Both the position numbers and the translations under genes were made by a program. From Spirochaetaceae bacterium (GTDB lineage Bacteria > Spirochaetota > Spirochaetia > SZUA-6 > Bin103), in the NCBI GenBank assembly GCA_028818385.1, contig JAPPNY010000113.1:1-31617 (forward strand): a DNA stretch of 31,617 bases, written 5' to 3'. The notes beneath the pieces are model-generated. The model made no database searches and was not told the origin of the DNA. It saw nothing but the letters and a program-made list of their open reading frames with translations. Below, piece by piece: positions 9,205-31,543 of the stretch (positions within the stretch are counted from its first letter, which is position 1; every line of letters begins with the position of its first letter).

Positions 9205-9456
9205 TCACGGATGTGGATAAGGCCCGGGACGATCGTAGAGCACGTCGCGCGACGGATAGGGCGCTCCGCTCTCGTTCAGGATCTCGGGCTTCACCGCCAA
9301 CGCCTGCTCCATCGCGATCTGGTACTCGTCCTCTCGGCGCCTGATCCCCTCGATCAGGTCGGCCAGCCACCCCGAAACGCTGCGATCGTCTTCGGCCGCC
9401 CGGACCCGCAGCCACCTCGCAGCATCCTCGGGAAGGGCCACGGTCACGTTCTTCAT
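9205..9456 (-). CDS. Ribbon-helix-helix antitoxin, TA pair 1
   Basis: An 83-residue protein whose first ~37 residues fit a ribbon-helix-helix DNA-binding fold: a beta strand KNVTVALPED, then helices AARWLRVRAAEDD and SVSGWLADLIEG. The rest (40-83) would be the toxin-neutralising tail. It probably binds and represses its own promoter, where a perfect inverted repeat sits between -35 and -10. There is no Shine-Dalgarno in front of ATG 9456; the predicted transcription start coincides with the ATG. Confidence 0.8.
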   Translation of the reverse strand: MKNVTVALPEDAARWLRVRAAEDDRSVSGWLADLIEGIRRREDEYQIAMEQALAVKPEILNESGAPYPSRDVLYDRPGPYPHP

Positions 9457-9462
9457 GAAACT

Positions 9463-9491
9463 AAATTAGGATTACACGAAAATCGTGTCAA
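9463..9491 (-). promoter_or_regulatory. Promoter of TA pair 1, predicted leaderless
   Basis: On the minus strand TTGACA (9486-9491), a 17-nt spacer, TAATTT (9463-9468), then exactly 6 nt to the antitoxin ATG at 9456. Transcription should start on or next to the A of ATG. No ribosome-binding site is present. The local sequence is AT-rich compared with its surroundings. Confidence 0.6.
9474..9488. promoter_or_regulatory. Inverted-repeat operator in TA pair 1 promoter
   Basis: A perfect inverted repeat ACACGA-AAA-TCGTGT lies inside the spacer and touches the -35 box. It is well placed for autorepression by the ribbon-helix-helix antitoxin. Confidence 0.55.
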
Positions 9492-9641
9492 ACCAGAGCC
9501 GCGGTCCGGTCGCACCGCCGTGAGGGCCCTTGCGCAGCCCGGTCGCAGCACGCTCCACGGAGTGCCGGGCGCCTTCGCCCCCTACCCCAGCGCGGCTTCG
9601 CCTGCGACAATCGCCGCAACCTCATCAGCAAGGAGTGACTC

Positions 9642-10400
9642 ATGGGTACAGACGGCCGCGTGGCCGGCAAGGCGGCGATCGTCACCGGTGCCGCTTCCGG
9701 CATCGGCCAAGCCACCGCGGAGCTGCTCGCGCGGGAAGGCGCGTCGGTCTGCGTGGCCGACGTCGACGCGGGTCGCGGGCAACAGGTGGTCGACGGCATC
9801 GCGGCGGCCGGCGGGACGGCCATCTTCGTTCGCACCGACGTGGGCGTGAGCGCGGACGTCCGCACCATGATCGAGCGGACCGAGTCGGCCTTCGGCCGGC
9901 TCGACATCATCCACAACAACGCCATCTGGTTCCGGATGGGGGCGGCCACCGAATTGGACGAAGCCGACTGGGACGGCACCCTGAACGTGGGGCTGAAGGC
10001 GGTCTTCCTGGCCGCCAAGCACGGCATCCCGGTCATGCGCAAGACCGGCGGCGGCGCGATCATCAACACCGGATCCGTGCACTCGCTGGTCGGATTCGCC
10101 ACCTACACCGCCTACGACGCGGCCAAGGCCGGAATCCTCGGCCTCACCCGCACCCTGGCGATCGACTACGGACCGGACATCCGCGTCTGCGCGGTGCTGC
10201 CCGGCGCGATCCTGACGCCGCTCTGGGGCGACGCACCGGAGGAGGACCGGCGGCGCTTCGCGGAGATGGTGCCGGCCAGGCGCCTCGGCACCGGCCGGGA
10301 CGTCGCCAACGCGGTGTTGTTCCTGGCCTCGGACGAGGCGTCCTTCATCACCGGCACCGCCCTGACCGTGGACGGCGGCCTGCTGGCGCGCACCGATTAG
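9642..10400 (+). CDS. SDR family NAD(P)-dependent oxidoreductase
   Basis: A 252-residue classical short-chain dehydrogenase/reductase. The cofactor motif TGAASGIG is at 15-22. D40 ends beta-2, favouring NAD(H). The structural NNA lies at 92-94 (the usual following G is replaced by I). The catalytic set is N115, S145, Y158 and K162 (YDAAK). The C-terminus has the family FITGTALTVDGG segment. AAGGAG lies 6 nt before ATG 9642. It stands alone between two toxin-antitoxin loci, so context does not indicate a substrate; a sugar or hydroxyacid alcohol group is plausible. Confidence 0.93.
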   Translation: MGTDGRVAGKAAIVTGAASGIGQATAELLAREGASVCVADVDAGRGQQVVDGIAAAGGTAIFVRTDVGVSADVRTMIERTESAFGRLDIIHNNAIWFRMGAATELDEADWDGTLNVGLKAVFLAAKHGIPVMRKTGGGAIINTGSVHSLVGFATYTAYDAAKAGILGLTRTLAIDYGPDIRVCAVLPGAILTPLWGDAPEEDRRRFAEMVPARRLGTGRDVANAVLFLASDEASFITGTALTVDGGLLARTD

Positions 10401-10440
10401 GAGTTGTCCGGACCAGCCCCTTCACCCTTCGCTTCGCATC

Positions 10441-10469
10441 TTGACACCATGTTCGCAAGACATCATGAT
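10441..10469 (+). promoter_or_regulatory. Promoter of vapBC (TA pair 2), predicted leaderless
   Basis: A perfect -35 TTGACA (10441-10446), a 17-nt spacer, -10 CATGAT (10464-10469), then exactly 6 nt to the vapB ATG at 10476. There is no Shine-Dalgarno upstream of that ATG, so the mRNA is predicted to start at or next to the initiation codon. Confidence 0.6.
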
Positions 10470-10470
10470 G
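10461..10470. promoter_or_regulatory. Palindromic operator candidate in vapBC promoter
   Basis: The perfect 10-bp palindrome CATCATGATG covers the -10 box. A VapB dimer bound here would block RNA polymerase. The short length leaves chance occurrence possible. Confidence 0.4.
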
Positions 10471-10475
10471 CTCCC

Positions 10476-10736
10476 ATGCGAACGACCCTGACGCTGGACG
10501 ATGACCTTGCGGAGTCCCTGCGAGAGCGGGCGCGGCTTCACGACCTGCCGTTCAAGAAGGTCGTAAACGATACGCTGCGCCGCGGGCTGTCCCCGGCCAC
10601 GCGCGATGCCGCTCCACCCCGCTACCGCGTCGTCCCCAACCGCAGCGGACTTGTGCCCGGCGTCGATCCGCTGAAGTTGAACCAGGTCTACGATCAGCTC
10701 GAGGCGGAGACCTTCTCCCGGACACATCGCGAGTGA
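10476..10736 (+). CDS. vapB: VapB-type antitoxin (ribbon-helix-helix), TA pair 2
   Basis: An 86-residue antitoxin. The N-terminal RTTLTLDDDLAESLRERAR followed by VVNDTLRRGL matches ribbon-helix-helix VapB antitoxins. The C-terminal part (about 45-86) would wrap the toxin. ATG 10476 is selected because the protein then starts at the fold and the predicted transcription start coincides with it; an in-frame extension upstream would run through the promoter. The stop overlaps the toxin start (GTGA, 10733-10736), so the toxin is translationally coupled. Confidence 0.85.
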   Translation: MRTTLTLDDDLAESLRERARLHDLPFKKVVNDTLRRGLSPATRDAAPPRYRVVPNRSGLVPGVDPLKLNQVYDQLEAETFSRTHRE

Positions 10737-11158
10737 TCGTCCCCGACCTCAACCTGCTGATCTACGCTCACAACGAGGATGCGCCCCATCACGAGCCCGC
10801 CAGGCGCTGGTGGGAGGGGCTTGTCAACGGCACGGAACGAGTGGGCGTCCCGTGGGTGGTATCGATCGGATTCGTCAGGTTGATGACCAACCCCAGAGTG
10901 CTCGTCCATCCGGTGTCGACCGATGAAGCGACCGGTCACATGCGCGCATGGTTCCGCTTCCCTCACGTGACGCCGGTCAACCCCGGCGCCGATCATCTCA
11001 CCGGGTTTGCGCGGAACCTCGCCGCCGCCGGCGTGGGAGCCGATCTGGTGACCGACGCCCACATCGCCGCACTCGCGATGGAGTACCAGGCGGAGGTCCA
11101 CTCCAACGATACCGATTTCAGTCGTTTCCCGGGCCTCCGCTGGCGCAACCCTCTCTGA
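10733..11158 (+). CDS. vapC: VapC-type PIN-domain toxin, TA pair 2
   Basis: A 141-residue PIN endoribonuclease. D5 (VPDLNLLIYA), D108 (VTDAHIAALA) and D126/D128 (SNDTDFSRFPG) are the acidic residues. The C-terminal FSRFPGLRWRNPL is characteristic of the Mycobacterium-type VapC family (TIGR00028-like). The usual second acidic residue after the first helix is not evident (SIGFVRLMTNP), as in many members. GTG 10733 overlaps the antitoxin stop. It converges with the methyltransferase, 26 bp away. Confidence 0.87.
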   Translation: MIVPDLNLLIYAHNEDAPHHEPARRWWEGLVNGTERVGVPWVVSIGFVRLMTNPRVLVHPVSTDEATGHMRAWFRFPHVTPVNPGADHLTGFARNLAAAGVGADLVTDAHIAALAMEYQAEVHSNDTDFSRFPGLRWRNPL

Positions 11159-11184
11159 TCGTCCCTCGCAAGGCGGCACCGCAC

Positions 11185-12186
11185 TCAACCCAACGCGACC
11201 GCGTGGGCGACCAGCGGACCGCGCGGATCGCTCAGATCTTCTCTTCGGCGCACCTTCAGTCCCATTCGTCCTGCGGTGTCCAGCACGCGCTCCAGACCGG
11301 AACGGTCCGGGGCGACCGACTGCAGCTCGGCCAGGCGCGCCGACCGGTCCCGCAGCGTAGCATCCAGCTCCATCAGCGCTCGGCGGCATGGCGTTGTGCG
11401 CGTCGGGTCGGCCGGACCGCCTACCTCGTCGACGGCGCCGATCAAGGCGTCGCGCAGGGCGGCGGGCACGTCGCGCAGTGTCTCGACCGGCCAGGTTGCC
11501 TCCTGGCAGCTCGCGATCCGGTCGAGCCGCACGACCTCGCGCGCGAATGCACTCCAGGCGGCGTTCCGCTCGCGCGCCGTGGCGGCTCCCGCCCCGACCT
11601 CCAGGACCTCACGAGCCAGATCGAGCACGGCCCCGGGAGCGAGCACCTCATCGAGCTGCGCCAGCTCCACGCGGGCCGTGGCAACCACCGCCGACTCCTG
11701 CAGGTGGACGATGAACACCGCGCGGCCGGCCGGCCGCAGCACGCGTCTGACCTCGGCCAGAACCTCCGGCGTGTCTCCGTACTCCAGGGCGAACTGGCCG
11801 GCGACGAGATCGAAGTACCCGTCCGCGAATGGCGTGGATGTCATCGACGTGCCGGGGTGGAAGGTGACGCCGGCCGCCAGCTCCCGGTAGCGGCCGCTCA
11901 CCGTGCGGGCCGGATCGATGGCCGCCGCGTCGACCCCGTGGATCTCCCAGCATGCCTCCCGCGCCGCGGCGGTCTCGGCTGCCGGCAGCGCCACCGCCCC
12001 GTTGCCGCAGCCCAGGTCGAGCACGCGTGCGCGGCCCCCGAGCGCGGCCAGCTCACGCCGCCACACCGCTGCAAGCGGCCCGTCGCCGGGATCGCCGTAC
12101 ACCTCCGGCAGGGAGGAAACCACGCCGGACGCCCAGTAGCGCGTCCAGGGATCGGACCGGGGCTGCGCGCTCAGCGGATGGACCAC
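11185..12186 (-). CDS. Class I SAM-dependent methyltransferase
   Basis: About 333 residues. The SAM-binding motif DLGCGNG (57-63) and the post-motif pattern (FDLVAGQFALEYGD, then VRRVLRPAGRAVFIVH) identify a Rossmann-fold methyltransferase of the methyltransferase_11/25 type. The opening DPWTRYWASGVVSSLP resembles a subgroup of small-molecule methyltransferases. The start is uncertain: GTG 12186 overlaps the end of the Gfo/Idh gene by 16 bp and has GGGGA immediately before it, while a CTG at 12176 is also possible. It is probably co-transcribed with the oxidoreductase. Acceptor unknown. Confidence 0.85.
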   Translation of the reverse strand: MVHPLSAQPRSDPWTRYWASGVVSSLPEVYGDPGDGPLAAVWRRELAALGGRARVLDLGCGNGAVALPAAETAAAREACWEIHGVDAAAIDPARTVSGRYRELAAGVTFHPGTSMTSTPFADGYFDLVAGQFALEYGDTPEVLAEVRRVLRPAGRAVFIVHLQESAVVATARVELAQLDEVLAPGAVLDLAREVLEVGAGAATARERNAAWSAFAREVVRLDRIASCQEATWPVETLRDVPAALRDALIGAVDEVGGPADPTRTTPCRRALMELDATLRDRSARLAELQSVAPDRSGLERVLDTAGRMGLKVRRREDLSDPRGPLVAHAVALG

Positions 12187-13241
12187 TCCCCGGCGTGCCG
12201 GTACGCGGCGGCGTAGCGCGTGCCGGCCACCTGAGCCGGCTGCCCGCTGTCGATGGAATCGATCGCGGCGCTCAGCAGCGCGAACACCTTGAGGTTGTTC
12301 CTGCCGCTGAACGAAGGCTCCGTTCCGCCCGCGAGGTAGTCGTGCCAGGCGTCGTAGAACACCTGCCACGAGTCGACGTTCCCCAGGTCGGCGTCGATGT
12401 CGTCGCGCCGGGCGAACGTTCCGCCGCGCTCGGCGAACTCGTACTCCATCTCGTCGTTGCTCATGTGGATCCCGCGGCAGCGCAGCACTCCCCTGGTGCC
12501 CTCGATGCGGAACTCGTAGTGATCGCCCTGCGAGGAGAACCCGCCGTGGTAGAGGACGTGCAGCCCGCCCGAGCAGCGGATGAGGGCGTTGACCATGCAG
12601 GGGCCGGCGTACACCGACCAGGAGGGGCGGAACCCATCGCAGGTGATGCTCTCGGGTGCATGCTCGGGAAAGATGGCCATGAGGCTGTCGAAGTGGTGGC
12701 ACGACATCTCGTAGAGCGCCGGCTGCGCCAGCGTGGTGAGGTTGAGCGCCTTGTGGCGCGGCTTCGAGTTGAGAAAGGTCACGCTTTCGGGCATCCCCAG
12801 CCCGCCTGAGGCCACGAACCGGCGGACCGCCTGATAGTGCCGGTTGTAGCGCACCTGCTGGCCCACCGACAGCGACCGGCCGGCGCGTTCGGCGTGCTCG
12901 ACCAGCTCTACCGCCTCGTCGAAGTCGTTGGTGATCGGCTTCGCCACCAGCACGTCCAGCCCGGCATCGACGCAGGACCTGCACTGGCGATAGTGCCACT
13001 CCGAGGGCGTGTTGATGATCGCGACGTCCGCCGCCGCAGCCGCGAGCGCGGCATCCAGGTCCCGGAACAGCGCGCTGTCCGCCAACCCGAGCAGCTCCTG
13101 CCCCTGGATGAGCGCATCGTCGCTGACATCCACGATGCCCACGATCTCCGCCCACGGCTGCCGCGCGATGCCGGGCGTCATCACCCTGGCGATCCCGCCC
13201 ATGCCGACGACGATGCACCTTCGTACGCTGTTGTCCGGCAT
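12171..13241 (-). CDS. Gfo/Idh/MocA family oxidoreductase
   Basis: A 356-residue NAD(P)-dependent sugar/inositol-type dehydrogenase. The Rossmann motif VGMGGIA is at 12-18 and the second-strand acid D38 (GIVDVS). The family EKP motif appears as AKPITND with catalytic-type K101, and the substrate-side HH pair is in CHHFDSL (182-183). The C-terminal alpha/beta domain ends with a segment typical for the family. ATG 13241 starts directly at the Rossmann domain. It is divergent from the RIFT/PL26-like gene (69 bp between), which suggests shared regulation and a sugar or uronic acid derivative as substrate; that link is inferred. Confidence 0.9.
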   Translation of the reverse strand: MPDNSVRRCIVVGMGGIARVMTPGIARQPWAEIVGIVDVSDDALIQGQELLGLADSALFRDLDAALAAAAADVAIINTPSEWHYRQCRSCVDAGLDVLVAKPITNDFDEAVELVEHAERAGRSLSVGQQVRYNRHYQAVRRFVASGGLGMPESVTFLNSKPRHKALNLTTLAQPALYEMSCHHFDSLMAIFPEHAPESITCDGFRPSWSVYAGPCMVNALIRCSGGLHVLYHGGFSSQGDHYEFRIEGTRGVLRCRGIHMSNDEMEYEFAERGGTFARRDDIDADLGNVDSWQVFYDAWHDYLAGGTEPSFSGRNNLKVFALLSAAIDSIDSGQPAQVAGTRYAAAYRHAGEWSIR

Positions 13242-13310
13242 GGCCGCGGACTCTGCACCGGAGCGGCGCCCGCTGCCAAGCCACCGCGCGATACACTGCC
13301 GGCGCACACC

Positions 13311-16300
13311 ATGGAGCCCATACCCCACATCGACATCGGCGGCGACCGCCACATCGAGGAGATCCTGCAGGACCCGGCCAGCGCCGTGGTCGATGCGGTG
13401 ACCTGCGAGACCCTCGGCGGCTGGGTGCCCGACATCGGGCTCACCACCTACTCCCACCGCAGCATCTACCGGCCGCCGGTGCTGGCGCGGTCCGGACTGG
13501 CCACCACGCTGGCGCATCGCTTCTGGCGCACCCTCGAGGGGCTGATGGACCACACCGGCACCCGGTGGATCGGCGTGCTCATCTACGACCAGCAGGGCGA
13601 GCAGTGCCCGATGGAGCTGGAGGTGGCCGGCCGCGCGGTGGGCCGGCTGGAACCGATCCGGCACGACAACCGCCGCCACCTGATCGTCGCCGACCGGCCG
13701 GTCGAGTTCTTCGGCGGCATGGAGGTGTTCCAGCTCACCGCGCCGGGGCCGGGGACCTACCGGATCGAGGCGCTGGCGTTCCTTGCCTCCCGCCCGGAGC
13801 CGAGCAGCTTCGCGCCGACCATCCGCCACCTCACCGCGCGTTCGCGTCCGGGAGGCGTCGAGCTGCACTTCACCACCGACCACGTCGCAGCAGCCGAGCT
13901 GGTCGTGCGTTCCGGCGAGACGGTGGCGGGCCGGTCGCGCTCGGACCGGCGGACCAAGCTCCACGCGGTGGCGTTGGACGGACTGGCCGGCGGCGACTAC
14001 CGCTGCGACGTGACCGCCGCCGGTATCATCGGCGAGACGGAGCGAGCGTCGCTCGATGTCTCCGTCCGCGACGACACCGCTTCGACCGCCCTCCCCGGGG
14101 GCTCGGTGCAGGAGGTGTCCGTACCGGTCGAGATCGTCGACGCGACGGAAGCCGGTCATGCCGCGGCAGGTCTGCCGCTGACCTTCGGTGTTCCCCTGCC
14201 CCGCGGGCGGCTTCCGCGGGCACTGACCGGCCGGCTGCACGCCGGCGGCCTTTCCACCCCCGCCCAGTGCCGGGTCCACTCGCCGTGGCCGGACGGCAGC
14301 GCCCGCTGGGTGCTGGTGGACGCCGTCGTCCCGGCACCGTTTCCGCCGGAGGAGGGCCGGATCGCCGCGACCGTGCACCTGGCACCCGCTGCCGAGCGCG
14401 GCCCGAGCGGACGCGCTGGCGGCGGCGCCCTCCTGGAACGCGATGGTCTGCGCATCGACCTCTCCCCTGAGCGGCCGGCGTTTCCCACCGTGCTGTCGGA
14501 ACGCGAAGGCGGTGCTCACGTCCCCGCTACCTCGGCCGTGGAGGTCCGCCTGGCCAACGGCGCCGCGCTGATACCACGCAGCTCGGCCGCCGTCCAGGAG
14601 GAATCCGGCCCCGAACGGAGCGTGCTCCGCTACCACGTCGATCACTGCGACCGCGACGGGACGCCGCACCTCAGGAGCACCATCCGCATCCACGGGTACC
14701 GCGGCCAGCGCCACCTGCGCATCCAGCACCGGCTGGAGGTGGTGAGCCCGGCGCTGGGGCCGGCCGCCGGCGATCCGCGCGAGACGCCGGTGGCGGTGGA
14801 GTCCGGCGCCGCATCGCGCGGCATCACCGAAGCCGGCCGCACAGACGCGACGGCAACGGCCGCCGACGTGGCCGCCTGTGTCGGCAGCGGTCCGGGAGAA
14901 GAGAACACGCTGCTGGAGGTCTCATCGGCCATCGCCCGCATCGCGATCCCCGGCACCCGGGCGCTGGTCGCGGACGGACGCCGCCACGAACTGGCCGCGA
15001 ACGGCCACTGGCGGCTGGTTCAGGCCGACGACCGCAGATACCAAGTATACAAGGTGACTGAATCCGGCGGGCCGGCCGAGGCTGCGGAGGGCCGGTTCTC
15101 GGGCCGGCTCCTGATGGAGACGGAGGACGGACTGGTCGGGCTGGCAGTGCGCCGGTTCTGGCAGACCTGCCCCACGGGGCTGCAGGTCGATGGGGACGGC
15201 GCAGCGGTGGAGCTGCTGCCCGCGCTGACGCCGGAGCGCACGGCCGGGCAGCCCGGCGCCGACACGCCCGATCCGACAGACGCCGAGAGCTGGCACCAGC
15301 TCCTCTTCTGGCGCACGAACCGCGGCTACCTCCTCAAGGCCGGACAGGCGCTCACCGGCGAGGTCGCCGTCAGCCTGCCCGGCTCGCCGGAAGAAGCCGA
15401 GCGCATCGCCGCCTGGTGCGAGCAGCCGGCGCTGGTGCGCCCCGCGATCGACTGGCTGAACGGGACCGGCGTCCTGAGTCCCATCCGGGCCAAGGCGACC
15501 TCGCCCCACCCCCGCTACGAGCGGGCCGTAGACCAGGCGTATGACGAGTGGCTGCGGGAGCGGGACAACCTCCGGCAGTACGGGTTCCTGAATTTCGGCG
15601 ACTGGTACGGGGAGAGCGGCTGGTCATGGGGCAACAACGAGTACGACCCGGCCTTTGCCCACTACCAGGAGTTCCTGCGCGGCGGCCGGGCCGAGTGGGC
15701 GGTGCTGGCGGCGGAGGCGGCGCGCCACCTGGTCGACGTCGACACCTGCAACCACTCGTCGGACCCGGCCCAGGTCGGCGGCCAGTACGGCCACATGCCC
15801 GGCCACGCCGGCGGCTACCTGCCGGCCTACTTCCGCAGCAAGGTCGCCTGCTCCTGCATGTTCTACTCCCATTCGTGGGTGGAGGGGCCGGTGCTCCACT
15901 ACCTGCTCACCGGCGACGAGAGCGTGCGGGAGACGCTCGACCGCATCGGCGAATGGATGCTCGGCGGCCGCACCCACGGGGTCATCGGCGGCAGCGTGGT
16001 CGCCGACCGGCAGGGGCTGGACGCCTACGACTACGGGCAGCTCCGAGACGCCGGCTGGCACCTCATCCACCTGTGCGCCCTGGCCCGCTGGAGCGACGAC
16101 CCGCGTTTCATGAACGCCGCGCACCTGGTCGCGGAGCGGCTGCTGGAGCGACGTACGCCGGGTGGTGGCTGGGAGCGCCTGCTCGGCGAAGGGCACTGCT
16201 TCGCAGGCCCTCCCCGGACCCGCGGCGAGGCCAGCTTCATGGTGGGCGTCTGCCTGTCGGCGTTGCGGCGCTACCACGAGATGACCGGCGACGAGCGGGT

Positions 16301-16640: not shown

Positions 16641-16661
16641 CCGGTTCCAACTACACGCTGA

Positions 16662-16686
16662 GGGTGACGACCGGCAGGCGTCACCC
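16662..16686. terminator. Bidirectional terminator-like hairpin
   Basis: A perfect 8-bp stem GGGTGACG/CGTCACCC with a 9-nt loop sits in the 48-bp gap between two convergent genes. No T tract follows on either strand, so it is a GC-rich terminator candidate. Confidence 0.6.
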
Positions 16687-16688
16687 CG

Positions 16689-22944: not shown

Positions 22945-22965
22945 CGTGTGCTCCGCCGGGTCCGG

Positions 22966-24846
22966 TCAGCGGCCGACCGTGACCAGCGCCTCGGCGATTG
23001 CGCCGTGCGATTCGCCGTCGACTTCGATCCGCGCGGTCACCAGCCGGCGGATGCCGTCGCCGGCGGCCGGAGCCGTGGCCTGCAGCGCGACCTCCCCCCT
23101 CTCGCCTGGCCGCAGCCGCACCGAAGCCGCGGCGCCGGCGCGCCAGCCCGGCGGCGCGTCGAGCTCCGCGGCGTAGGTCGCGTCCCGCTCCAGGTTGTTG
23201 CGCAGCAGGAGCCGGTACGTGACCGACCCGCCGGGGTCCACGGTGGCCAGGTACGGGAGCAGCCGCGCCCAGAACAGGTCGACGTAGTGATCGGCCGGCT
23301 CGGCCACCAGGTTGCGGAACGCCCGCTCCTTGCGGGCGATGAAGTCGGCGTATTCGTCGAGCTGCTGCTTCGAGCAGTCGATCACGCCGCCGTGGCCGGG
23401 GCAGATCAGCTCCGGGTCGACGCGGCGCATCACCTCCGCGCAGCGCCGGTGCATGCCGAGCTGGAAGCTGTTGCGCAGGACCGTCGTCTGGATCGGCTTC
23501 CTGATCGTCTCCCCGGCGCGCAGCTCGTTCGAGAGGAAGAAATTGTCACCCGTGAAGGCGACCCTCCGGCCGTCGATCAGGCCGGCGTAGACGGAATGGA
23601 ACTCGGTCTGGCCGGGCGCGAAATGGATGTCGAAACGGTACTCCTCCCACGCGAAGCACTCGCCGTCGTGCAGGTAGCGGTCGATGCGGATCGGCCGCGG
23701 GTACGTGCACGGCGTGCTGGCCCACGCGGCCGGGTCCGCAAGCACCTGCGCGACCTCGCCCAGCGCCCAGCAGCGGGTGCCGTGGTGGCGCTGCAGGTAG
23801 GGAATGCCGCACGTGTGGTCGTCGTGGATGTGGGTGGGCACCACCACGTCGAGCTCGGTCACGCCGTAGTCGTCGCGCAGCTCCTCCAGGTGGTGGGCGA
23901 CGAAGCGCAGCGACTCCTGGCCGTGATGCTCGGAGTTGGTGTGCATGTGGGTGGCCAGCGAGTGGCCGTAGTCGACGAACATCGCCTTGCCGGAATCGCT
24001 CAGCACCACGTAGAAGTTGCTGCAGGTCCACGGCCCGCCCCACAGCAGGTGGCGGGACAGGGGCTGCATCCGGGCGTCCGGCAGGAAGTGGGAGGTCGGC
24101 AGATCCTCCCGCGAGCCGGCCACGCGCAGGCCGTTGCCGAGCGCGACGCAGTCGGCCAGCCGCCGGCGCAGGCGCGCGATGTCGCCGGCGACGTCCGTGA
24201 TCTCATCCCCGTGCGAAGGATAGGCGACCTGCACGTTCAGCCGGTCCAGCGCGTCGATCGACTCGATCGTGAAGCCGACGCCCTCCATGCCGCCGTAGGC
24301 GTACTCCATGGCGTGAAGCTGGTAGAGCCTGCCGCCGGCGCTCATCAGGTCCCCCGTGAACGCCACCCGCTGCCCGTCGATCGTGGCGATGAGCATCGAG
24401 GAGCCGCGCGTGTGCCCCTTGGCCGGAATGATCTCGAAGCGATGGCCGCGCCACGTGAAGGTCTCGTAGTCCTCCAGCACGGCGTCGACGGCGATGTCTC
24501 GCGCTGACGTGAAGAAGGTGTTGCGGTCGTCGTAATTGTCATACACCCGGCGCGTCCGCCAGAACAGCTCGGCCTCCGCGAACAGGTGGCGCTCGTGCTC
24601 GGGCACCGCGACCTGTGCGCCCGCGGCAGCTAGGGCCGGCGTGCCCGCGCATTGATCCCGGTGGTGGTGGGTGTGCAGAACCCATTCCACCGTGGCCGCT
24701 CCCGTCTCGGCCAGAGCCCCGGCGACCGCCCCGGAGCCGGCATCGATCAGCAGCGCCCGGTCACTGTCTACAATAACGTATATGTTGCAAGTATCGGTGA
24801 AGCGGTAGAGGTGCTCGCTCAGTCGCGCCAGACGGGGATCGGCCAT
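22966..24846 (-). CDS. Double metallo-beta-lactamase-fold protein with C-terminal Ig-like domain
   Basis: A 626-residue protein with two MBL-fold units. Domain 1 (about 1-245) has THHHRDQ (H60, H62, D64; the usual last histidine is Q65), H145 (KGHTRGS), D166 (FTGD) and H212 (PSHGD). Domain 2 (about 265-500) has the canonical THIHDDH (H339, H341, D343, H344), H417 (TEFHSVY), D434 (FTGD) and H485 (CPGHG). Residues ~535-626 look like a NEW3-type beta-sandwich. It is probably a hydrolase for an ester, lactone or phosphoester. It lies in the run of genes between the GH127-like enzyme (66 bp) and the monooxygenase (21 bp). No signal peptide is seen. Confidence 0.82.
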   Translation of the reverse strand: MADPRLARLSEHLYRFTDTCNIYVIVDSDRALLIDAGSGAVAGALAETGAATVEWVLHTHHHRDQCAGTPALAAAGAQVAVPEHERHLFAEAELFWRTRRVYDNYDDRNTFFTSARDIAVDAVLEDYETFTWRGHRFEIIPAKGHTRGSSMLIATIDGQRVAFTGDLMSAGGRLYQLHAMEYAYGGMEGVGFTIESIDALDRLNVQVAYPSHGDEITDVAGDIARLRRRLADCVALGNGLRVAGSREDLPTSHFLPDARMQPLSRHLLWGGPWTCSNFYVVLSDSGKAMFVDYGHSLATHMHTNSEHHGQESLRFVAHHLEELRDDYGVTELDVVVPTHIHDDHTCGIPYLQRHHGTRCWALGEVAQVLADPAAWASTPCTYPRPIRIDRYLHDGECFAWEEYRFDIHFAPGQTEFHSVYAGLIDGRRVAFTGDNFFLSNELRAGETIRKPIQTTVLRNSFQLGMHRRCAEVMRRVDPELICPGHGGVIDCSKQQLDEYADFIARKERAFRNLVAEPADHYVDLFWARLLPYLATVDPGGSVTYRLLLRNNLERDATYAAELDAPPGWRAGAAASVRLRPGERGEVALQATAPAAGDGIRRLVTARIEVDGESHGAIAEALVTVGR

Positions 24847-24912
24847 GCCCGCATCGTAGTGGGAGCGCCGACCCCGAGCAATCCGCGCGGTCCCATCGGT
24901 CAGTCACGCTCT

Positions 24913-26778
24913 TCACCACCTGAATTCCCGTTCCGGAACGAAACGGGTGACCTTCTTCCAGCGCGTCTCGTCCTGGCGATAGCGCTCCCTGCGATAGAGC
25001 GCTCCGTCCCTCCCCGGTGGATCGACGTCGATGACCGTCGTCCCCTTCAGGGTGTAGGTGTGCGGGACCTTCTCGATGTATGCGAGCTCGTCTCCGGTAC
25101 CCAGGGGAAAGCGCACCGAGACCGTCTGGCCCGGCTTGACCGGACCGGCGGCGCAGTAGCGGTCGTCCCACCGGGCGTTTCGCCGTTCGCCGTCGACCGC
25201 GTACACCGCGTCCTCCGGTCTCACGCCTGCGGGGATCCTGACCGCGCAACTCGCGAGCGGGCGCTTTGGCTTCACGTCGACCTGCCCCCGGTAGGGGATG
25301 TGGCTGTCGATGTCGGCCCACCGGGAGGAGCGGTTCAGCAGCAGGTTCACCCTCAGGGCATCGTCCCGGTAGTCACACACGCCGTTCCAGATGTAGTAGA
25401 GGGCGCGGGTCGCGTTGGCCGTGCAGCAGTGCATGACGTTGTTGCCCCACTCGTTGCCCGAAAGCCAACCGCCGAAGGCCCCGACGTGTCGCTCGGCCAC
25501 CTCGTGAACGGCGTCCGGGGACTCGGTCTCCGGCGGCTGCGCGGGGATCCCCGGACGGCGGTCGATCCTCCGCTGGATCCAGGAGATCTCGGTGAGCTGA
25601 CCCTCGGCAAAGTGGTTGCGGATCCAGCGGTCGGCGTCGTCCCACAGGTCTTCCCGTCCGGCCTGACTGATCTTGATGGCCAGGGCGATCATCTCGGCCA
25701 GTCCGCAGAGCTCGCAGGTGCAGCGCTTGCTCGCCCTGACCCATTCGGGGAAGAAGCCGACCAGAGGCTCGCCGTATGTCCTGCCCCAGGCGTATCCGCG
25801 CCCGATGAAGTCCCAGAACTCCTCGTCGCCGGTCTCGGTCGCGTACTCGGTCATGCCCAGCAGCACGCGGGTGTGGCCGTGGAAGTGCGGGGAGTTGATG
25901 AACTCGGCGGTGCCGGCATCGAAGGCGACGCTGTGCAGTGCGGAGCCCCGCAGCAGCTTCCCCGCTGCGTCGAGCGCCTCTTCGCAGCCAAGCGTGCGGT
26001 ACACCTGCACCAGAGCCTGCCCGATCCACCCCTCGTTGCAGGCGAGTTGGGCATTGTCCACCACGGGGCTGGAGCTGACGTCCACGTTCGGCGTGGCCAC
26101 GATCTTGGCAGCGTGCACGTCGACGGGGGTGTCCGGCCCGAAGACGATGTCCGGGAGGTAGAGGTGATCGTCACAGGCGAGACACCGCTTCAACAGCCCG
26201 TTCGCCGCGCGCAGGGAGGACTCCTTCCAGCCTTCGTCGCCGGTCAGCTCGTGCAACAGCGCCGCCGCGGCCATGCGCACGGAGCAGACGATGGGAATGG
26301 CGTAGTGACCCAGACCGGTGGTGGGGTAGAAGTCGAAGAACGTGGTGTCGCTCCACGGCCGCCTGGGATCGACCGGTTCGTAGAAACAGCCGTCGGGCCC
26401 CTGCAAGTGCAGGAGCACCTCGAACCATCGCCGGTCCACGTGGCTGTTGTGGCCGGATCCGGTGATGGTTCGCAGCAGCGGAACGCTCTCCAGGAACTTG
26501 GACTGCACGTGGTCATGGATCTGGTGAAACATCATGGGCGGATTGCGGTAGAACGAAACCAGCCAGTACACCTCGTAGTCGAGCGCGGGATTCGTGGGAG
26601 AGGTCATCCCGTTGATCCCCAGGAGGGCGCGTTCCTGGAGGTCCAGGGTGTCCGGCACCAGATCTTCGTACGACTCTCCCCGGTATTCGGGAAGTTCGAG
26701 ATCCGGAATGTCGAGGCGGATGTAGTTGATTCCGGTCTCTTTCAGGCTCGGCGCTTCCTGCGCTCTGTAGAGCTTCAC
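24913..26778 (-). CDS. GH127/DUF1680-like glycoside hydrolase (beta-L-arabinofuranosidase-like)
   Basis: A 621-residue protein resembling the DUF1680/GH127 family. The family's cysteine/zinc site is recognisable: E356 and C358 in CTCELCGLAEM, and C451-C452 in MHCCTANATR. In characterised GH127 beta-L-arabinofuranosidases the equivalent Glu and three Cys bind zinc and one Cys is the nucleophile. The flanking region is alpha-helical, consistent with an (alpha/alpha)6 barrel, and a beta-sandwich-like C-terminus follows (480-621). No signal peptide is seen. GTG 26778 has a GGGGG ribosome site 6 nt upstream. It is divergent from the sugar importer. Activity on arabinosyl or related sugars is likely but unproven. 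Confidence 0.75.
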   Translation of the reverse strand: MKLYRAQEAPSLKETGINYIRLDIPDLELPEYRGESYEDLVPDTLDLQERALLGINGMTSPTNPALDYEVYWLVSFYRNPPMMFHQIHDHVQSKFLESVPLLRTITGSGHNSHVDRRWFEVLLHLQGPDGCFYEPVDPRRPWSDTTFFDFYPTTGLGHYAIPIVCSVRMAAAALLHELTGDEGWKESSLRAANGLLKRCLACDDHLYLPDIVFGPDTPVDVHAAKIVATPNVDVSSSPVVDNAQLACNEGWIGQALVQVYRTLGCEEALDAAGKLLRGSALHSVAFDAGTAEFINSPHFHGHTRVLLGMTEYATETGDEEFWDFIGRGYAWGRTYGEPLVGFFPEWVRASKRCTCELCGLAEMIALAIKISQAGREDLWDDADRWIRNHFAEGQLTEISWIQRRIDRRPGIPAQPPETESPDAVHEVAERHVGAFGGWLSGNEWGNNVMHCCTANATRALYYIWNGVCDYRDDALRVNLLLNRSSRWADIDSHIPYRGQVDVKPKRPLASCAVRIPAGVRPEDAVYAVDGERRNARWDDRYCAAGPVKPGQTVSVRFPLGTGDELAYIEKVPHTYTLKGTTVIDVDPPGRDGALYRRERYRQDETRWKKVTRFVPEREFRW

Positions 26779-26841
26779 GATGAACCCCCGCCGATCGATC
26801 TCGTGCCGCCACCGTACCCGGCCCGGCGGAGTCTTGTCACT

Positions 26842-26853
26842 CCTCGATCGAGG
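26842..26853. promoter_or_regulatory. 12-bp palindrome between divergent sugar operons
   Basis: A perfect CCTCGATCGAGG palindrome lies in the 304-bp gap between the GH127-like gene and the importer. It could be an operator for a shared sugar-responsive regulator. The regulator is not in the window. A 7-bp hairpin (CGGCGGC/GCCGCCG, 26864-26880) lies next to it. No convincing sigma70 promoter is visible in this gap. Confidence 0.35.
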
Positions 26854-26984
26854 TTCGCCGAAGCGGCGGCGGTGCCGCCGACCTCGACCCGTCCCCGACT
26901 CCCGGGCCGGGCTTGCGGGACGTGGCCCATCCATGGAAAATGTCCGCAGATCCGAGGCCAGCGCGTTCCGCAAGGAGTAGCAGC

Positions 26985-27095
26985 ATGCCGCGAAAGTTGA
27001 TCGCTACGGACCCGAGCAGGTCGCCGTACGCGATCATCGGATCATCCCCGATCCGGTCGCCCCACGCACGGACATCGCCCGCATGCGAACGCTGA
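26985..27095 (+). CDS. Small upstream ORF overlapping the importer start
   Basis: A 36-codon ORF with the best ribosome site in this gap (AAGGAG at 26972-26977, 7 nt before ATG). It reads MPRKLIATDPSRSPYA onward and ends 13 bp past the permease ATG, in a different frame. The permease ATG at 27083 has no Shine-Dalgarno of its own. This suggests translational coupling or a regulatory leader peptide. The beginning is vaguely like the start of RidA-type proteins, so a decayed gene fragment is also possible. Confidence 0.4.
   Translation: MPRKLIATDPSRSPYAIIGSSPIRSPHARTSPACER
27036..27057 (+). other. Hairpin within the leader of the importer operon
   Basis: ATCGGATC pairs with GATCCGGT (8 bp including one T-G) around a 6-nt loop, 25 nt upstream of the permease ATG and inside the small upstream ORF. 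It could sequester or expose the permease start. There is no terminator-like T tract. Confidence 0.35.
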
Positions 27096-28069
27096 GTACG
27101 GCGGCGAAGAACGCTCTCCCCCGGCGCCGGCGCGGCAACCGGAACGGCGGGATACGCGGACTCTTGCACATCGACCCGTCCACGCGCCACAGAATGCTCA
27201 TGAACAGGCAGATCTACCTGATGTATCTGCCGGCGATTCTCACCGTCATCGTCTTCAATCTGTTCACCACCTACGGGCTGAAGATAGCCTGGCTCGATTT
27301 CAATTTCCAGGACGGCTTGAACAGCCCCTCCATCGGCTGGGAGTACTTCCGGGTGCTGTTCGGCATGCCACGGTTCTTTCGCCTGATGCGGAACACGGTG
27401 GAGATAACCTTCCTTCGCCTTCTGTTCGGGTTCCCGATCGTCATACTCCTGGCGCTGCTGCTCAACGACATACGCAGCAAGGGACTGAAGAACGTATCCC
27501 AGTCGGTGCTCTACCTTCCCCACTTTCTCAACTGGGTGATCATAGCGACCCTGCTCTACCTGGTCTTCAACGAGCACTCCGGGGTTCTGAGCCGTCTGTT
27601 CGGCGCCGTCGGCCTGCCCTACGAGGACATCACCTGGAAGCGGGAATGGATCCGCGTCGTCCTCATCGGCAGCGGCATATGGAAGACCATGGGCTGGAGC
27701 ACGATCATCTACCTCGCCGCATTGTCCGCCGTCGACCCCGGTCTCTATGAGAACGCGATCGTCGACGGAGCCGGCAAGATCACGCAGATGTGGCACATAT
27801 CCGTCCCGGCGATCTTCCCGGTGATCGCGATTTCATTCGTGTTCGCGATCACGACGATCTTCATGGAGAACCTCACGCAGATCCTCCTGCTGGGCCGCAA
27901 CATGCCCAACGTCGAGGTGTTCGAAACCTGGATCTACGATTGGGGCCTGCTCAGGGGAAACTACGGGATGGCGACCGCCATGGGCCTGTTCCAGACGATG
28001 TTCGGGATCGTCCTGTCGTTGTTCGCGAACTACCTGGTCAGCAAGATCGGCTATGAGGTGCTGTGGTGA
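27083..28069 (+). CDS. lplB: Carbohydrate ABC transporter permease, LplB-like
   Basis: A 328-residue inner-membrane permease of a CUT1-type importer. There are about six transmembrane helices (first ~45-65) and an EAA loop at about 223-242 (ENAIVDGAGKITQMWHISVPA), which contacts the ATPase. VFNLFTTYGLKIAWLDF and ILLLGRN are typical of the LplB/YtcP pair. ATG 27083 overlaps the small upstream ORF; ATG 27194 or 27200 would give shorter versions. The next permease overlaps its stop (GTGA). No ATPase gene is nearby, so an MsmX-like shared ATPase is likely. Confidence 0.9.
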   Translation: MRTLSTAAKNALPRRRRGNRNGGIRGLLHIDPSTRHRMLMNRQIYLMYLPAILTVIVFNLFTTYGLKIAWLDFNFQDGLNSPSIGWEYFRVLFGMPRFFRLMRNTVEITFLRLLFGFPIVILLALLLNDIRSKGLKNVSQSVLYLPHFLNWVIIATLLYLVFNEHSGVLSRLFGAVGLPYEDITWKREWIRVVLIGSGIWKTMGWSTIIYLAALSAVDPGLYENAIVDGAGKITQMWHISVPAIFPVIAISFVFAITTIFMENLTQILLLGRNMPNVEVFETWIYDWGLLRGNYGMATAMGLFQTMFGIVLSLFANYLVSKIGYEVLW

Positions 28070-28944
28070 GAGCGACGGCCTCCGACAAGCTCTTCTCCAT
28101 CGTATCCAACGGCGTGATCATCCTGCTGTCTCTGACCTGCATCATGCCCTTCCTGTACGTGGTCTCCGTGTCGATCACCACGTCGAAGGCCTTCTATCTC
28201 GAAGGAGCGCGTCTGATACCGAACGACGTGACGTTCGCTGCCTATCGCTCGCTGCTGGTGGACGCCACGCTGTTCCGGCGGGCGCTGGCCAACACGCTGG
28301 TCCTCACCGTGATGGGCACGAGCGTCACGGTGTTCCTGAGCACGATGACCGGGTATGCGTTCTCCAAGAGGGATGTCCCGGGCAGAAAGCTGATACTGAT
28401 CTTCCTCTACCTTTCCGGCTTCTTCGCCGGCGGCCTGATACCCAAGTTCTTCGTGTTGCAGCGCATGGGCCTCATCAACACCTACTGGGCGCTGATCATA
28501 CCGACCGCTGCCGTGTTCAATTACCTGTTGATCAAGAACTACTTCATCATGGCGCTCCCGGAGGCGATCGAGGAGTCCGCGAAGCTCGATGGCGCGAGCA
28601 CGTTCCAGATACTCATACGCATCGTCATGCCGCTGGCCCTGCCGATCATGGCGACCATCGCGCTGTTCAGCGCGGTGATGTTCTGGAACACGTACATGGA
28701 GGCCGCGCTGTTCGTTCCGTCCCGCAAGAAGATGGTGGTCATGCGCCTGCTGCAGAGCATGATCGAGGTCTACAGCGGCGACTTCGCCGAGCAACTCGGG
28801 AAGAGCGTCGACATGTCGGAAGCGCCGTCCGAGGGATTCAAGATGGCGGCCCTGTTCATCGCCACCGTTCCGATCCTGTTCCTGTATCCGTTCCTGCAGA
28901 AGCACTTCGCGAAAGGGATCATCATCGGCGCCGTGAAGGGGTAA
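28066..28944 (+). CDS. lplC: Carbohydrate ABC transporter permease, YtcP/LplC-like
   Basis: A 292-residue second permease of the importer, with six predicted transmembrane helices. The hallmark GGLIPKFFVLQRMGLINT starts at 122, and the EAA loop is at about 169-190 (EESAKLDGASTFQILIRIVMP). GTG 28066 overlaps the first permease stop and has GAGG 7 nt upstream; GTG 28063 is an alternative. It forms a heterodimer with the preceding permease and takes substrate from the binding protein encoded downstream. Confidence 0.9.
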   Translation: MRATASDKLFSIVSNGVIILLSLTCIMPFLYVVSVSITTSKAFYLEGARLIPNDVTFAAYRSLLVDATLFRRALANTLVLTVMGTSVTVFLSTMTGYAFSKRDVPGRKLILIFLYLSGFFAGGLIPKFFVLQRMGLINTYWALIIPTAAVFNYLLIKNYFIMALPEAIEESAKLDGASTFQILIRIVMPLALPIMATIALFSAVMFWNTYMEAALFVPSRKKMVVMRLLQSMIEVYSGDFAEQLGKSVDMSEAPSEGFKMAALFIATVPILFLYPFLQKHFAKGIIIGAVKG

Positions 28945-28949
28945 TCCAG

Positions 28950-28977
28950 GGATGCCGCGGACTCGTTGCGGGCATCC
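28950..28977 (+). other. Intercistronic stem-loop downstream of permease 2
   Basis: GGATGCC (28950-28956) pairs with GGCATCC (28971-28977). The inner part can add pairs around a single bulge. It lies in the 164-bp gap before the binding-protein gene. Such hairpins often adjust the ratio of binding protein to permease by stabilising or attenuating the transcript. No T tract is present. Confidence 0.4.
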
Positions 28978-29074
28978 GTGCACGGGGGTGAAGGGCATGC
29001 ACATGAAAGCTTGAGGGAGGCGGGAGGGAATCGTAGGGGGAAGATCCCCGGAAACAGATCGAATCGACGGACAT

Positions 29075-29089
29075 CGATGCCGAGCATCG
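29075..29089 (+). other. Stem-loop just upstream of the binding-protein ribosome site
   Basis: A perfect 6-bp stem CGATGC/GCATCG with a CGA loop ends 5 nt before the AAGGAG of the binding-protein gene. It may protect the 5' end of a processed mRNA. Chance occurrence cannot be excluded. Confidence 0.35.
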
Positions 29090-29108
29090 GTGACAAGGAG
29101 TTGAACGA

Positions 29109-30740
29109 ATGAACAAGAGGGCAACGATAGCGGTGCTGCTGGCCGTTCTCGCCACCCCCCTGCTGCTCGCTTCGGCAGAGGGAGAAGAAGGCGGGGACGC
29201 CGCGGTCCCGCACTACGAATACGTGGTCATAGGCCCCGCGCCACAGGCCATAGAGCGCAGCGAGCTCAAGCATTACGATGAGGTCAAGGCCGCTCTCGAC
29301 GAGAAGATGGCCGCCGAGCTGGGATTCACGATCGACGTGACCGACCTGAGCCAATCGGGTATGGCCGTCAACCAGTTGATCCAGTTGTCCGCCGCCGGCG
29401 GCGACCCCATCCACATCGTGCAGGGCACGGGTGAAATGGGCGGCGCCACCGAGTGGGCGCCGATGTGGATCCCGGTGGAAGGTCTCGTCGACGAGCATGC
29501 GCCGGACTACCTGGAGCTGGTGAATGACTACAATCCGCTGTTGCTGGAGACGTTCAGCGACAAGGACGGAAACCTTGCCGGCCTGCCCCACCTGGTCCGC
29601 ATGCGGGGGCTGATCTACCTGTTCAACCAGGACCTGATCGACAAGCTGGGAGTCGAGCTGCCGCCGCTGCCGGAGGGCAGGTTCGACCTGACGTTCGATC
29701 ACCTGGAGCAGTTGGGCGAGGCGTTCAACCGCGAAGTGCCCGACGGCATGGGCATCATGTGGTACCACACCTTCAAGACCTTCCTGGGCGCCTTCGAAGA
29801 CAATATCTCCATGTCGAACTGGAACCCGCAGGGATACGTGAACTATTTCGATCAGGAAGAAGGGATCTGGAAGGATTGGGTCGATTCCGAGTACTACGAG
29901 GACTCGGTCCGGCTGTTCGACAAGTTCCTGAAGAAGGGATACTACTGGCACAGCCTCGCCGAGCCGGCCGGAACGGAGCGGGACAGGGGTTTCATCAACG
30001 GCACCATTCTTGGCAGAGACGGTCAGGGCTGGTACGGAGGCAACCCGACCTACAAGGAGTGGATCGACGAAGATCCGGCCAACGAAACCAAGATCCTGGT
30101 CTACGGCGTGGCTTCGAAGAAACAGCCTATCTGGAGCGCCGGATTCAGGGGACTGTTCTTCACCAAGCGGAACACGCAGGAGCAGGTCGAGAAGTACCTG
30201 CAGTTCATCAACTGGATGTCCAGGGATGAGGCGAACTACAACCTGGCACGCTACGGGATCGAGGGTCTTACCTTCGAGATCGAGCAGACGGCCGGCGGCG
30301 ACATGAGTCTCCATATCCCGGAAGCCGAAATGACCGACACCATCCAGGAGCCCTACCAGCTCATGGGCTTCGAGCACCGGTGGCTGCTCGGAAACTACGA
30401 CCGCAAGTACGAACGGGCCGGGCTGACGTTCGCGGGCAACGAGATCCACGACCTGTTCGATGCCCTGAACGCGCAGAACAGCACGATCGAGCCGTACGTG
30501 TTCGCGCGCTTCGTCTACACCCCGGAGGAGCAGCAGAAGGTCGCGGACTCCTTCGCCTTCATCACCAGCGAGTTCTTCGATGGCGTGCTGATGGACCGGG
30601 ACATGGACGTCGAAGAGAAGATCGCCCGCGGCAGGGAGATATACGCCGAGTTCCACAAGATGGGAGGAGGCATCTACATAGACAAGACCAACGAGTACTA
30701 CCTGGCGAATCCGGGTCTGAGACCGCTCCCGCTCAACTGA
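29109..30740 (+). CDS. Extracellular solute-binding protein (sugar importer)
   Basis: A 543-residue periplasmic or surface binding protein of the large LipO-like class that accompanies LplB/YtcP permeases. An N-terminal signal peptide is clear (KR at 3-4, hydrophobic 6-20, ASA at 21-23). There is no lipobox cysteine; signal peptidase I cleavage after A23 is likely, followed by an acidic linker EGEEGGD. AAGGAG lies 8 nt before ATG 29109. The mature part has the two-lobe binding-protein pattern with aromatic-rich stretches (WYGGNPTYKEW). It probably captures an oligosaccharide or sugar derivative for the two permeases. The acidic cysteine-free N-terminus is reminiscent of spirochaetal sugar-binding proteins. 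Confidence 0.88.
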   Translation: MNKRATIAVLLAVLATPLLLASAEGEEGGDAAVPHYEYVVIGPAPQAIERSELKHYDEVKAALDEKMAAELGFTIDVTDLSQSGMAVNQLIQLSAAGGDPIHIVQGTGEMGGATEWAPMWIPVEGLVDEHAPDYLELVNDYNPLLLETFSDKDGNLAGLPHLVRMRGLIYLFNQDLIDKLGVELPPLPEGRFDLTFDHLEQLGEAFNREVPDGMGIMWYHTFKTFLGAFEDNISMSNWNPQGYVNYFDQEEGIWKDWVDSEYYEDSVRLFDKFLKKGYYWHSLAEPAGTERDRGFINGTILGRDGQGWYGGNPTYKEWIDEDPANETKILVYGVASKKQPIWSAGFRGLFFTKRNTQEQVEKYLQFINWMSRDEANYNLARYGIEGLTFEIEQTAGGDMSLHIPEAEMTDTIQEPYQLMGFEHRWLLGNYDRKYERAGLTFAGNEIHDLFDALNAQNSTIEPYVFARFVYTPEEQQKVADSFAFITSEFFDGVLMDRDMDVEEKIARGREIYAEFHKMGGGIYIDKTNEYYLANPGLRPLPLN

Positions 30741-30756
30741 TCAACTGATCCCGCCT

Positions 30757-30803
30757 CGGAGTCTGTCGGATCTGTCGCCGCGCGCGGCAGGTCCGACACT
30801 CCG
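30757..30803. terminator. Strong bidirectional terminator-like hairpin
   Basis: CGGAGT/ACTCCG and GTCGGA/TCCGAC form a long stem with a 2-nt bulge around a self-complementary GC-rich core (GCCGCG/CGCGGC). It lies between the convergent binding-protein and PIN toxin genes. No T tract follows. A tandem TCAACTGA repeat at the binding-protein stop precedes it. Confidence 0.65.
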
Positions 30804-30810
30804 GCGCTCG

Positions 30811-31242
30811 TCAGGGCGCCATCACGTCGATGCCGGCAAGATCGAACCGCTCGAAGTGCGTGACGTCATACGTCAGGATCCGGTCGAGGGCAGCCTTGCG
30901 CGCGCACCGCACGTGGAGCGCGTCGTAGACCGCACCGCTCGTCAGACCCAGCCCGGCGACTTCGCGGAGGACCTCCAGGTAGTCGTCGAGCACGATTTCG
31001 ACCACCGACAGCCGCCCGCGTATGCTCTCCTCGACCAGTGATCGCGCCTCTTCCGGCAGCACGCGTTTCGGCAGCGGCAGCGCCGTGAGCGTCGCGTAGC
31101 ACTCCGCCAGCGCGTGCGTGGAGCAGTACCCCTGGTCCTCGCCGTCCGTGTAGCGATGGAGCGCGTCGAACGCTGCGTGGTGATTTCCGAGCTGATCCAC
31201 CAGGGCCGGAACCAGCACCGACGTGTCGAACAGCGTACGCAT
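30811..31242 (-). CDS. PIN-domain toxin (VapC-like RNase), TA pair 3
   Basis: A 143-residue PIN ribonuclease. The acidic residues are D6 (LFDTSVLVPA), E47 (ALAECYATL), D107 (VYDALHVRCA) and D126 (TYDVTHF). ATG 31242 shares its A with the antitoxin TGA (TGATG); GTG 31245 is one codon upstream and also overlaps. The toxin follows an AbrB/MazE-like antitoxin, a common pairing for PIN toxins. Key residues are intact. Confidence 0.88.
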   Translation of the reverse strand: MRTLFDTSVLVPALVDQLGNHHAAFDALHRYTDGEDQGYCSTHALAECYATLTALPLPKRVLPEEARSLVEESIRGRLSVVEIVLDDYLEVLREVAGLGLTSGAVYDALHVRCARKAALDRILTYDVTHFERFDLAGIDVMAP

Positions 31243-31508
31243 CACTCGATGGCCGAGACGATGTGCCGGCTCCGCGCCTCACGCTCCGCGCGGATGAAGT
31301 CGACGATGTCGACCGCGATCCGGTCGTCGCCGTGATGCACCAGGATGCCCTTCTTGCGAATCAGCGACGGCTCGGCTCCCACCTTGCGGAGGGTCACGCC
31401 GTCGCCCGCGGCTTCGATCGCAAGCTCCGTGCCCGGCACCAGATTGAACCGGTCACGGAACGGCTTCGGCACGACGATCCTGCCGGCACGGTCGATGGTA
31501 ACGATCAT
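31242..31508 (-). CDS. AbrB/MazE-type antitoxin, TA pair 3
   Basis: An 88-residue protein. Residues 1-45 form a SpoVT-AbrB swapped-hairpin DNA-binding domain (VTIDRAGRIVVPKPFRDRF). The remainder would bind the toxin. Its stop overlaps the toxin start. ATG 31508 has no Shine-Dalgarno and lies 6 nt after a -10 box, predicting a leaderless transcript. It probably represses its own promoter through the direct repeats at 31514-31533. Confidence 0.87.
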   Translation of the reverse strand: MIVTIDRAGRIVVPKPFRDRFNLVPGTELAIEAAGDGVTLRKVGAEPSLIRKKGILVHHGDDRIAVDIVDFIRAEREARSRHIVSAIE

Positions 31509-31513
31509 GCCAT

Positions 31514-31533
31514 GATGGTATTCCAGATGGTAT
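31514..31533. promoter_or_regulatory. Direct-repeat operator in TA pair 3 promoter
   Basis: Two copies of GATGGTAT (31514-31521 and 31526-31533, 12-bp period) cover the -10 box and part of the spacer. An AbrB-type antitoxin could bind them to autoregulate. Only two copies are visible. Confidence 0.5.
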
Positions 31534-31543
31534 AACGCGTCAA
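31515..31543 (-). promoter_or_regulatory. Promoter of TA pair 3, predicted leaderless
   Basis: On the minus strand -35 TTGACG (31538-31543), a 17-nt spacer, -10 TACCAT (31515-31520), then 6 nt to the antitoxin ATG. This is the same geometry as TA pairs 1 and 2. Confidence 0.58.

Follow-up and report, generated by a model that had tools for sequence, protein, structure and literature searches.

Predicted leaderless antitoxin promoters in three unrelated VapBC modules of a Spirochaetaceae contig

Leaderless toxin-antitoxin (TA) operons, which are transcribed from the start codon of their first gene, are known from Mycobacterium tuberculosis, and those described by Cortes et al. reportedly include VapBC modules. 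Start sites have been mapped in that organism, and of 37 TA pairs for which a primary start site was found, 32 are leaderless (Cortes et al. 2013, PMC3898074); another source states that its TA transcripts are predominantly leaderless (PMC8485053). A broader class of leaderless genes, called TA-led, has a TA-like signal whose first T lies about 12 bp upstream of the start, which corresponds to 6 nt between hexamer and start; this class is genome-wide and not tied to antitoxins, and the main text of its description never uses the word 'toxin' (Zheng et al. 2011, PMC3160421). A further parallel is pvuIIC of the PvuII restriction-modification system, a self-regulated gene with a regulated transcript from its initiator codon and an overlap with the next gene, although its product is an activator of the restriction system whereas VapB is an antitoxin repressor (PMC2997769). 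Here, we describe three VapBC modules in a stretch of 31,617 nucleotides from a Spirochaetaceae bacterium (contig JAPPNY010000113.1, below called the window), in which the antitoxin genes have predicted promoters of this leaderless kind.

All three antitoxin genes are preceded by TTGACR-N17-hexamer-N6-ATG, as can be read directly from the window sequence. The VapB1 promoter (9463..9491, minus strand) consists of TTGACA (9491-9486), a 17-nt spacer and TAATTT (9468-9463), and extends over 9491-9454 when the ATG, which starts at 9456, is included. The VapB2 promoter (10441..10469, plus strand) reads TTGACA-N17-CATGAT-N6-ATG, with the ATG at 10476 and a span of 10441-10478 through it, and the VapB3 promoter (31515..31543, minus strand) reads TTGACG-N17-TACCAT-N6-ATG, with the ATG at 31508 and a span of 31543-31506. 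A 17-nt spacer is the optimum for sigma-70 promoters, and the -10 hexamer canonically ends 6 nt before +1. The strict pattern TTGACN18NANNATN6ATG matches the window twice, against 0 matches in 100 shuffles, and a pattern that admits all three sites, written post hoc, matches 3 times where base composition would predict 0.003. A promoter scanner applied to 8600-11300 and 30700-31617 returned one site per stretch, namely the VapB2 and VapB3 promoters; it missed the VapB1 promoter within 8600-11300 because TAATTT lies below its threshold. None of the motifs AGGA, GGAG and GAGG, which define a Shine-Dalgarno (SD) sequence here, occurs within 16 nt upstream of any of the three ATGs, and the best-matching homologues have lengths (mostly 80-83, 86 and 88-89 amino acids) that agree with the assigned starts. 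Both the common geometry and the lack of an SD in the antitoxin genes had been proposed in a first-pass annotation of this DNA, and both are borne out.

The closest likeness is to the M. tuberculosis operons, with their TANNNT -10 and transcription from the start codon (PMC3898074), and to the TA-led class, with TANNNT at the same distance (PMC3160421). TAATTT and TACCAT are such hexamers at 6 nt, CATGAT of VapB2 misses the T and conforms only loosely, and all three antitoxin genes share the absence of an SD that marks the class. Two differences stand out: the start sites are mapped in M. tuberculosis whereas those described here are predicted, and the -35 is near-consensus in the window whereas the M. 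tuberculosis promoters are reported to lack a conserved -35 motif (PMC3898074).

The genes behind these promoters are small antitoxins followed by PIN-type toxins. VapB1 (9205..9456, minus strand, 83 amino acids) is of the ribbon-helix-helix type; it has no Pfam match of its own, and some of its relatives match PF07878, which we take to be a ribbon-helix-helix family. Its toxin VapC1 (8698..9162, minus strand), a PIN-domain protein by Pfam, starts 42 nt past vapB1 and has its own GGAG at -9 of its ATG. VapB2 (10476..10736, plus strand, 86 amino acids), which has 1730 homologues and no Pfam match, was judged by eye to be ribbon-helix-helix-like, and VapC2 (10733..11158, plus strand) has a PIN domain with a good fit to Mtu_PIN_fam among the domain profiles; the two genes join in a GTGA overlap. 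VapB3 (31242..31508, minus strand, 88 amino acids) carries an AbrB/MazE domain of the 'GRIVVPK' type (PF04014, TIGR01439), and its stop is overlapped (GTGATG) by the start of VapC3 (30811..31245, minus strand), a PIN_3 protein by Pfam. Considering that PIN or PIN_3 is above cut-off in 3/3 toxins, and that each has a small antitoxin gene directly upstream on the same strand (the DNA-binding type of VapB2 being assigned from a look at the sequence), all three are VapBC modules with different antitoxins. The earlier description of the toxins as coupled to their antitoxins thus fits VapC2 and VapC3, which overlap them, but not VapC1, with its gap and SD.

Our preferred reading, to which we give a probability of roughly 0.7, is that these three unrelated modules each have an autoregulated sigma-70-type promoter-operator fused to the antitoxin start codon, and that their mRNAs are leaderless. 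With the -10 lying 6 nt upstream, RNA polymerase would start at the A of the ATG, and the spacings of 17 and 6 nt would be imposed by the polymerase. Since leaderless genes ordinarily have this 6-nt distance, the shared geometry needs no TA-specific cause.

Each promoter is also overlaid by a repeat of its own, a putative operator. The repeat at VapB1 is the inverted repeat ACACGA-TTT-TCGTGT (9474..9488), over the -35 end and spacer. That at VapB2 is GACATCATGATGCT (10459..10472), over the -10, a degenerate copy of the palindrome GACATCATGATGTC, which 4 of 16 close relatives of VapB2 have in exact form; a repeat search finds an inner CATCAT/ATGATG palindrome within it. At VapB3, the direct repeat GATGGTAT occurs twice, 12 nt from start to start, again over the -10 (31514..31533). 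VapB or the VapBC complex probably binds the repeat at its own promoter, blocks polymerase and stops transcription. Promoter, operator and start codon would thereby be packed into about 40 bp and kept with the antitoxin family, and the toxins would be translated by way of the stop-start overlap in modules 2 and 3 and from their own SD in module 1.

Conservation supports the promoter of VapB2 and, in part, that of VapB3. A VapB2 relative is present in 33 of 301 genomes of the Chloroflexi phylum (Chloroflexota), and 28 of the 30 loci collected were scored; these and all further counts of relatives refer to loci among the matches listed, and related loci are not independent, which is itself a reservation. 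Of the 16 closest loci, 15 have TTGAC[AG] exactly 29 nt upstream of the ATG. Sequence conservation sets in at about -39 (CATC) and continues to the ATG, with the flank further upstream at background, which supports the VapB2 promoter. An SD was found in 0/28 scored loci.

VapB3 has relatives in 26/301 Chloroflexota genomes (26-45% identity), in 4/64 genomes in the phylum of genome G012 and in 9/296 in the Spirochaetes phylum; plasmids gave no match and viral contigs one partial match. Of 46 loci collected (L156 excluded), 42 were scored. Among the relatives of VapB3 with its GR-type AbrB motif, 15/22 loci show TANNNT 6-7 nt upstream of the start and 2/22 an SD, against 2/20 and 9/20, respectively, for the AbrB proteins without a GR motif from the same searches, a split that was drawn post hoc with a loose motif. 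The exact TTGACR-N17-TANNNT-N6-ATG recurs in GR-type loci of four genomes of the Spirochaetes phylum (L387, L396, L397, L398). Where both AbrB types have scored loci in one genome (G222, G046, G262, G190), TANNNT at 6-7 nt is present for the GR copy in 4/4, and an SD for the non-GR copy in 3/4.

Several results, besides the dependence among loci and the late division of the AbrB proteins, weigh against leaderless transcription. Any.A...T hexamer at 5-8 nt is found in only 19 of the 28 scored VapB2 loci, and TANNNT at 6-7 nt in 10; 6 of the 22 GR-type loci have no -10 at 5-8 nt. Relatives of VapB1, all distant, occur in 8/301 Chloroflexota genomes (none in plasmids or viral contigs), and among the 6 scored of the 9 loci collected (35-44% identity) 4 have an SD, so that the VapB1 layout is without comparative support. 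In addition, the A of the -10 is missing from 9 of the 16 close relatives of VapB2, of which eight have TTTGAT, TTCGAT or TCTGAT and one has CGCGAT. Perhaps, then, the true starts lie further upstream, the leaders simply have no SD, and the hexamers near the ATG are parts of an operator instead of -10 boxes. These four hexamers and CATGAT itself would be poor -10s, CATGAT lies inside a palindrome, and readthrough into vapB2, which sits 75 nt behind the SDR gene, is possible. On the other side, the diverged VapB2-like paralogues L102, L105 and L109 carry TATGAT at a distance of 7 nt from the start and no SD, the -35 holds its exact place in all but one of the 16 close loci, and the scanner saw no further promoter-like site in 8600-11300 or 30700-31617. 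Starts further upstream would therefore seem improbable. The earlier claim that transcription begins on or next to the ATG accordingly stands as the best reading of the three predicted promoters, aided by the VapB2 conservation, but its geometry is not specific to TA genes and VapB1 adds nothing from its relatives.

Could the host have leaderless starts for many genes, with the antitoxins as mere examples? The first-pass annotation had named a genome-wide rule as the outcome that would count against it, and the window itself holds one non-TA gene of this layout, a metallo-beta-lactamase-fold (MBL) gene (ATG 24846, minus strand) with TTGCTC-N17-TACGAT-N6-ATG and no SD. Leaderless genes are moreover frequent in some groups, averaging 19.2% in Actinobacteria and, among 12 Chloroflexi, 4.7% in the 4 with any detected (PMC3160421), and PPK2 and Gfo/Idh genes in other genomes have the same pattern. 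The background rate was sampled in 400 kb each of two Chloroflexota genomes (G044 and G031), which are not the window's own. TANNNT peaks there at exactly 6 nt, in 6/781 and 9/1025 candidate starts, where most neighboring distances give about 1-2; the excess amounts to about 2% of 283 and 325 open reading frames (ORFs), and a looser scan gives a weak peak only, at 6-7 nt. Because so few starts in these two genomes have TANNNT at 6 nt, we consider a genome-wide rule unlikely, with the proviso that they stand in for the window's own genome.

How common is the exact geometry elsewhere? In 41 genomes there are 98 occurrences of TTGACR-N17-NANNNT-N6-ATG, about 2.4 per genome, and 34 of a reversed control; 64 of the 98 sites open an ORF of at least 60 amino acids and 34 do not. 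The Pfam families of the 64 ORFs, of which 25 of 48 were listed, include Gfo/Idh oxidoreductases (11), PPK2 (7), AbiEi-type antitoxins (4) and Gp49-like proteins (2), the last presumably of the RelE/HigB type; there are also 7 VapB2 proteins and, as judged by eye, one ribbon-helix-helix protein and one HicA-like protein. About 15 of the 64 are thus TA-related, a large share, although orthologues are counted repeatedly and most of the 64 are other genes. The idea that the geometry is specific to TA genes is ruled out by the window MBL gene and by the PPK2 and Gfo/Idh genes. The AbiEi-type antitoxin genes with the exact layout come from four Chloroflexota genomes (L205, L215, L218, L221). The PPK2 genes (L187, L188, L189, L191, L192, L194, L235) come from seven genomes and have TANNNT as the -10, which makes them candidates, by their sequence, for conserved leaderless metabolic genes.

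The absence of an SD is likewise not distinctive within the window. Among the 17 non-TA genes listed there, with the first start chosen mechanically for each, a four-letter SD precedes that start in 6 and is absent in 11. The contrast that the first-pass annotation drew between SD-less antitoxins and SD-led metabolic genes is therefore weak, sound on the antitoxin side but doubtful in one of the genes that it cited, the desaturase, for which the nearest motif to the first start is GGAG at -18 or, if a later ATG is used, GAGG at -15.

Other antitoxin families offer a sharper comparison, drawn from 41 genomes of one Chloroflexota class. Of 30 PF04014 (AbrB) loci collected, 25 were scored (the flank was cut in 5); none has the GR motif, 21 have a KGQ, KRQ or RNQ motif, and 22 are SD-led. 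PF02604 (Phd/YefM) gave 30 loci, of which 22 were scored (flank cut in 8) and 17 are SD-led. The chance rate of such an SD match is about 9%, and TANNNT at 6-7 nt was found in none of these 25 and 22 loci. Leaderlessness as a general trait of antitoxins is ruled out by these two families, and the SD survey that had been suggested as a check, carried out in Chloroflexota, comes out divided: the VapB2 type is SD-less, as expected, but other families are mostly SD-led, unlike the leaderless TA operons of M. tuberculosis (PMC3898074). The difference is also seen within genomes. Fifteen genomes combine a close VapB2 relative with one or more scored loci of PF04014 or PF02604. An SD precedes the VapB2 relative in 0/15, while 21 of the 25 other loci are SD-led and 13 of the 15 genomes have at least one SD-led locus.

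Does the partner toxin decide the mode of initiation? Partners were checked by Pfam in 20 picked loci. Those of SD-led antitoxins are PIN proteins in 10/11 (the partner in L299 has no family), those of VapB2- or GR-type antitoxins without an SD in 8/8, and that of L313, whose antitoxin has no SD by the rule used, is a PIN protein as well; G072 (L093 and L284) and G170 (L089, and L285 and L323) each contain a PIN partner for either kind of antitoxin. PIN toxins are thus found with SD-led and SD-less antitoxins alike, so that how translation starts is not set by the toxin family.

These comparisons allow a tentative proposal, for which the odds are somewhat below even: the initiation mode may be inherited with the antitoxin family, the VapB2 type (in Chloroflexota) and the GR-type AbrB (across phyla) bringing a leaderless cassette and other PIN-paired families, often in the same genome, being SD-led. 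A link between family and initiation mode seems to exist, for VapB2 inside single genomes and for the GR type across phyla, in samples that are modest and non-independent and with an AbrB split made after the fact. Considering that a leaderless start is independent of a match to the host anti-SD, such modules could function at once in a new host, and whether leaderless starts help TA modules to move between hosts becomes testable. Leaderless VapBC promoters of the kind predicted here are likely, and already known in kind; what would be new is the link to antitoxin family, since titles and abstract openings in the open-licence literature yielded no report that leaderless starts characterize particular antitoxin families across different phyla. 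The sequence evidence extends leaderless TA operons from M. tuberculosis to the window and to relatives in Chloroflexota and the Spirochaetes phylum, and it suggests that antitoxin families differ in translation start even with the same toxin family and in the same genome.

The first-pass annotation went further and proposed that a leaderless antitoxin and its coupled toxin are translated differently, which would give a built-in control of the toxin:antitoxin ratio under ribosome stress. The layout is as it described, the toxin starts do overlap in modules 2 and 3, and TA mRNAs of M. tuberculosis rise 1.53-fold on average in starvation (PMC3898074). We nevertheless judge this proposal very unlikely, and not supported by the present data: an overlap should make toxin translation follow that of the antitoxin, so that both change together; there is no common design, the toxin being SD-led in module 1 and not in modules 2 and 3; other-family antitoxins paired with PIN toxins (10/11 tested) are SD-led even in genomes with a VapB2 relative; and a review states that other laboratories did not reproduce the underlying model, in which MazF-made ribosomes favor leaderless mRNAs (PMC9031893).

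Matches to other proteins of the window scatter over different groups: those of the DEAD helicase come from several phyla, at up to 63%, the luciferase-like protein reaches 52% in one genome of the class of G044, and the 2-hydroxyacid dehydrogenase 61% in a genome labelled Gemmatimonadetes. Two further features of the window may be mentioned. A 543-amino-acid protein (29109-30740) beside two ABC permeases has no Pfam match, and could be a divergent binding protein or something else; searches gave one weak match in 21 genomes, none in plasmids and none in 64 genomes, the empty answer of this last search showing nothing. The desaturase gene (minus strand) and an ABC ATPase gene (plus strand) are divergent, with a 53-nt gap between them (6617-6671) that contains a TTGACA on the desaturase strand.

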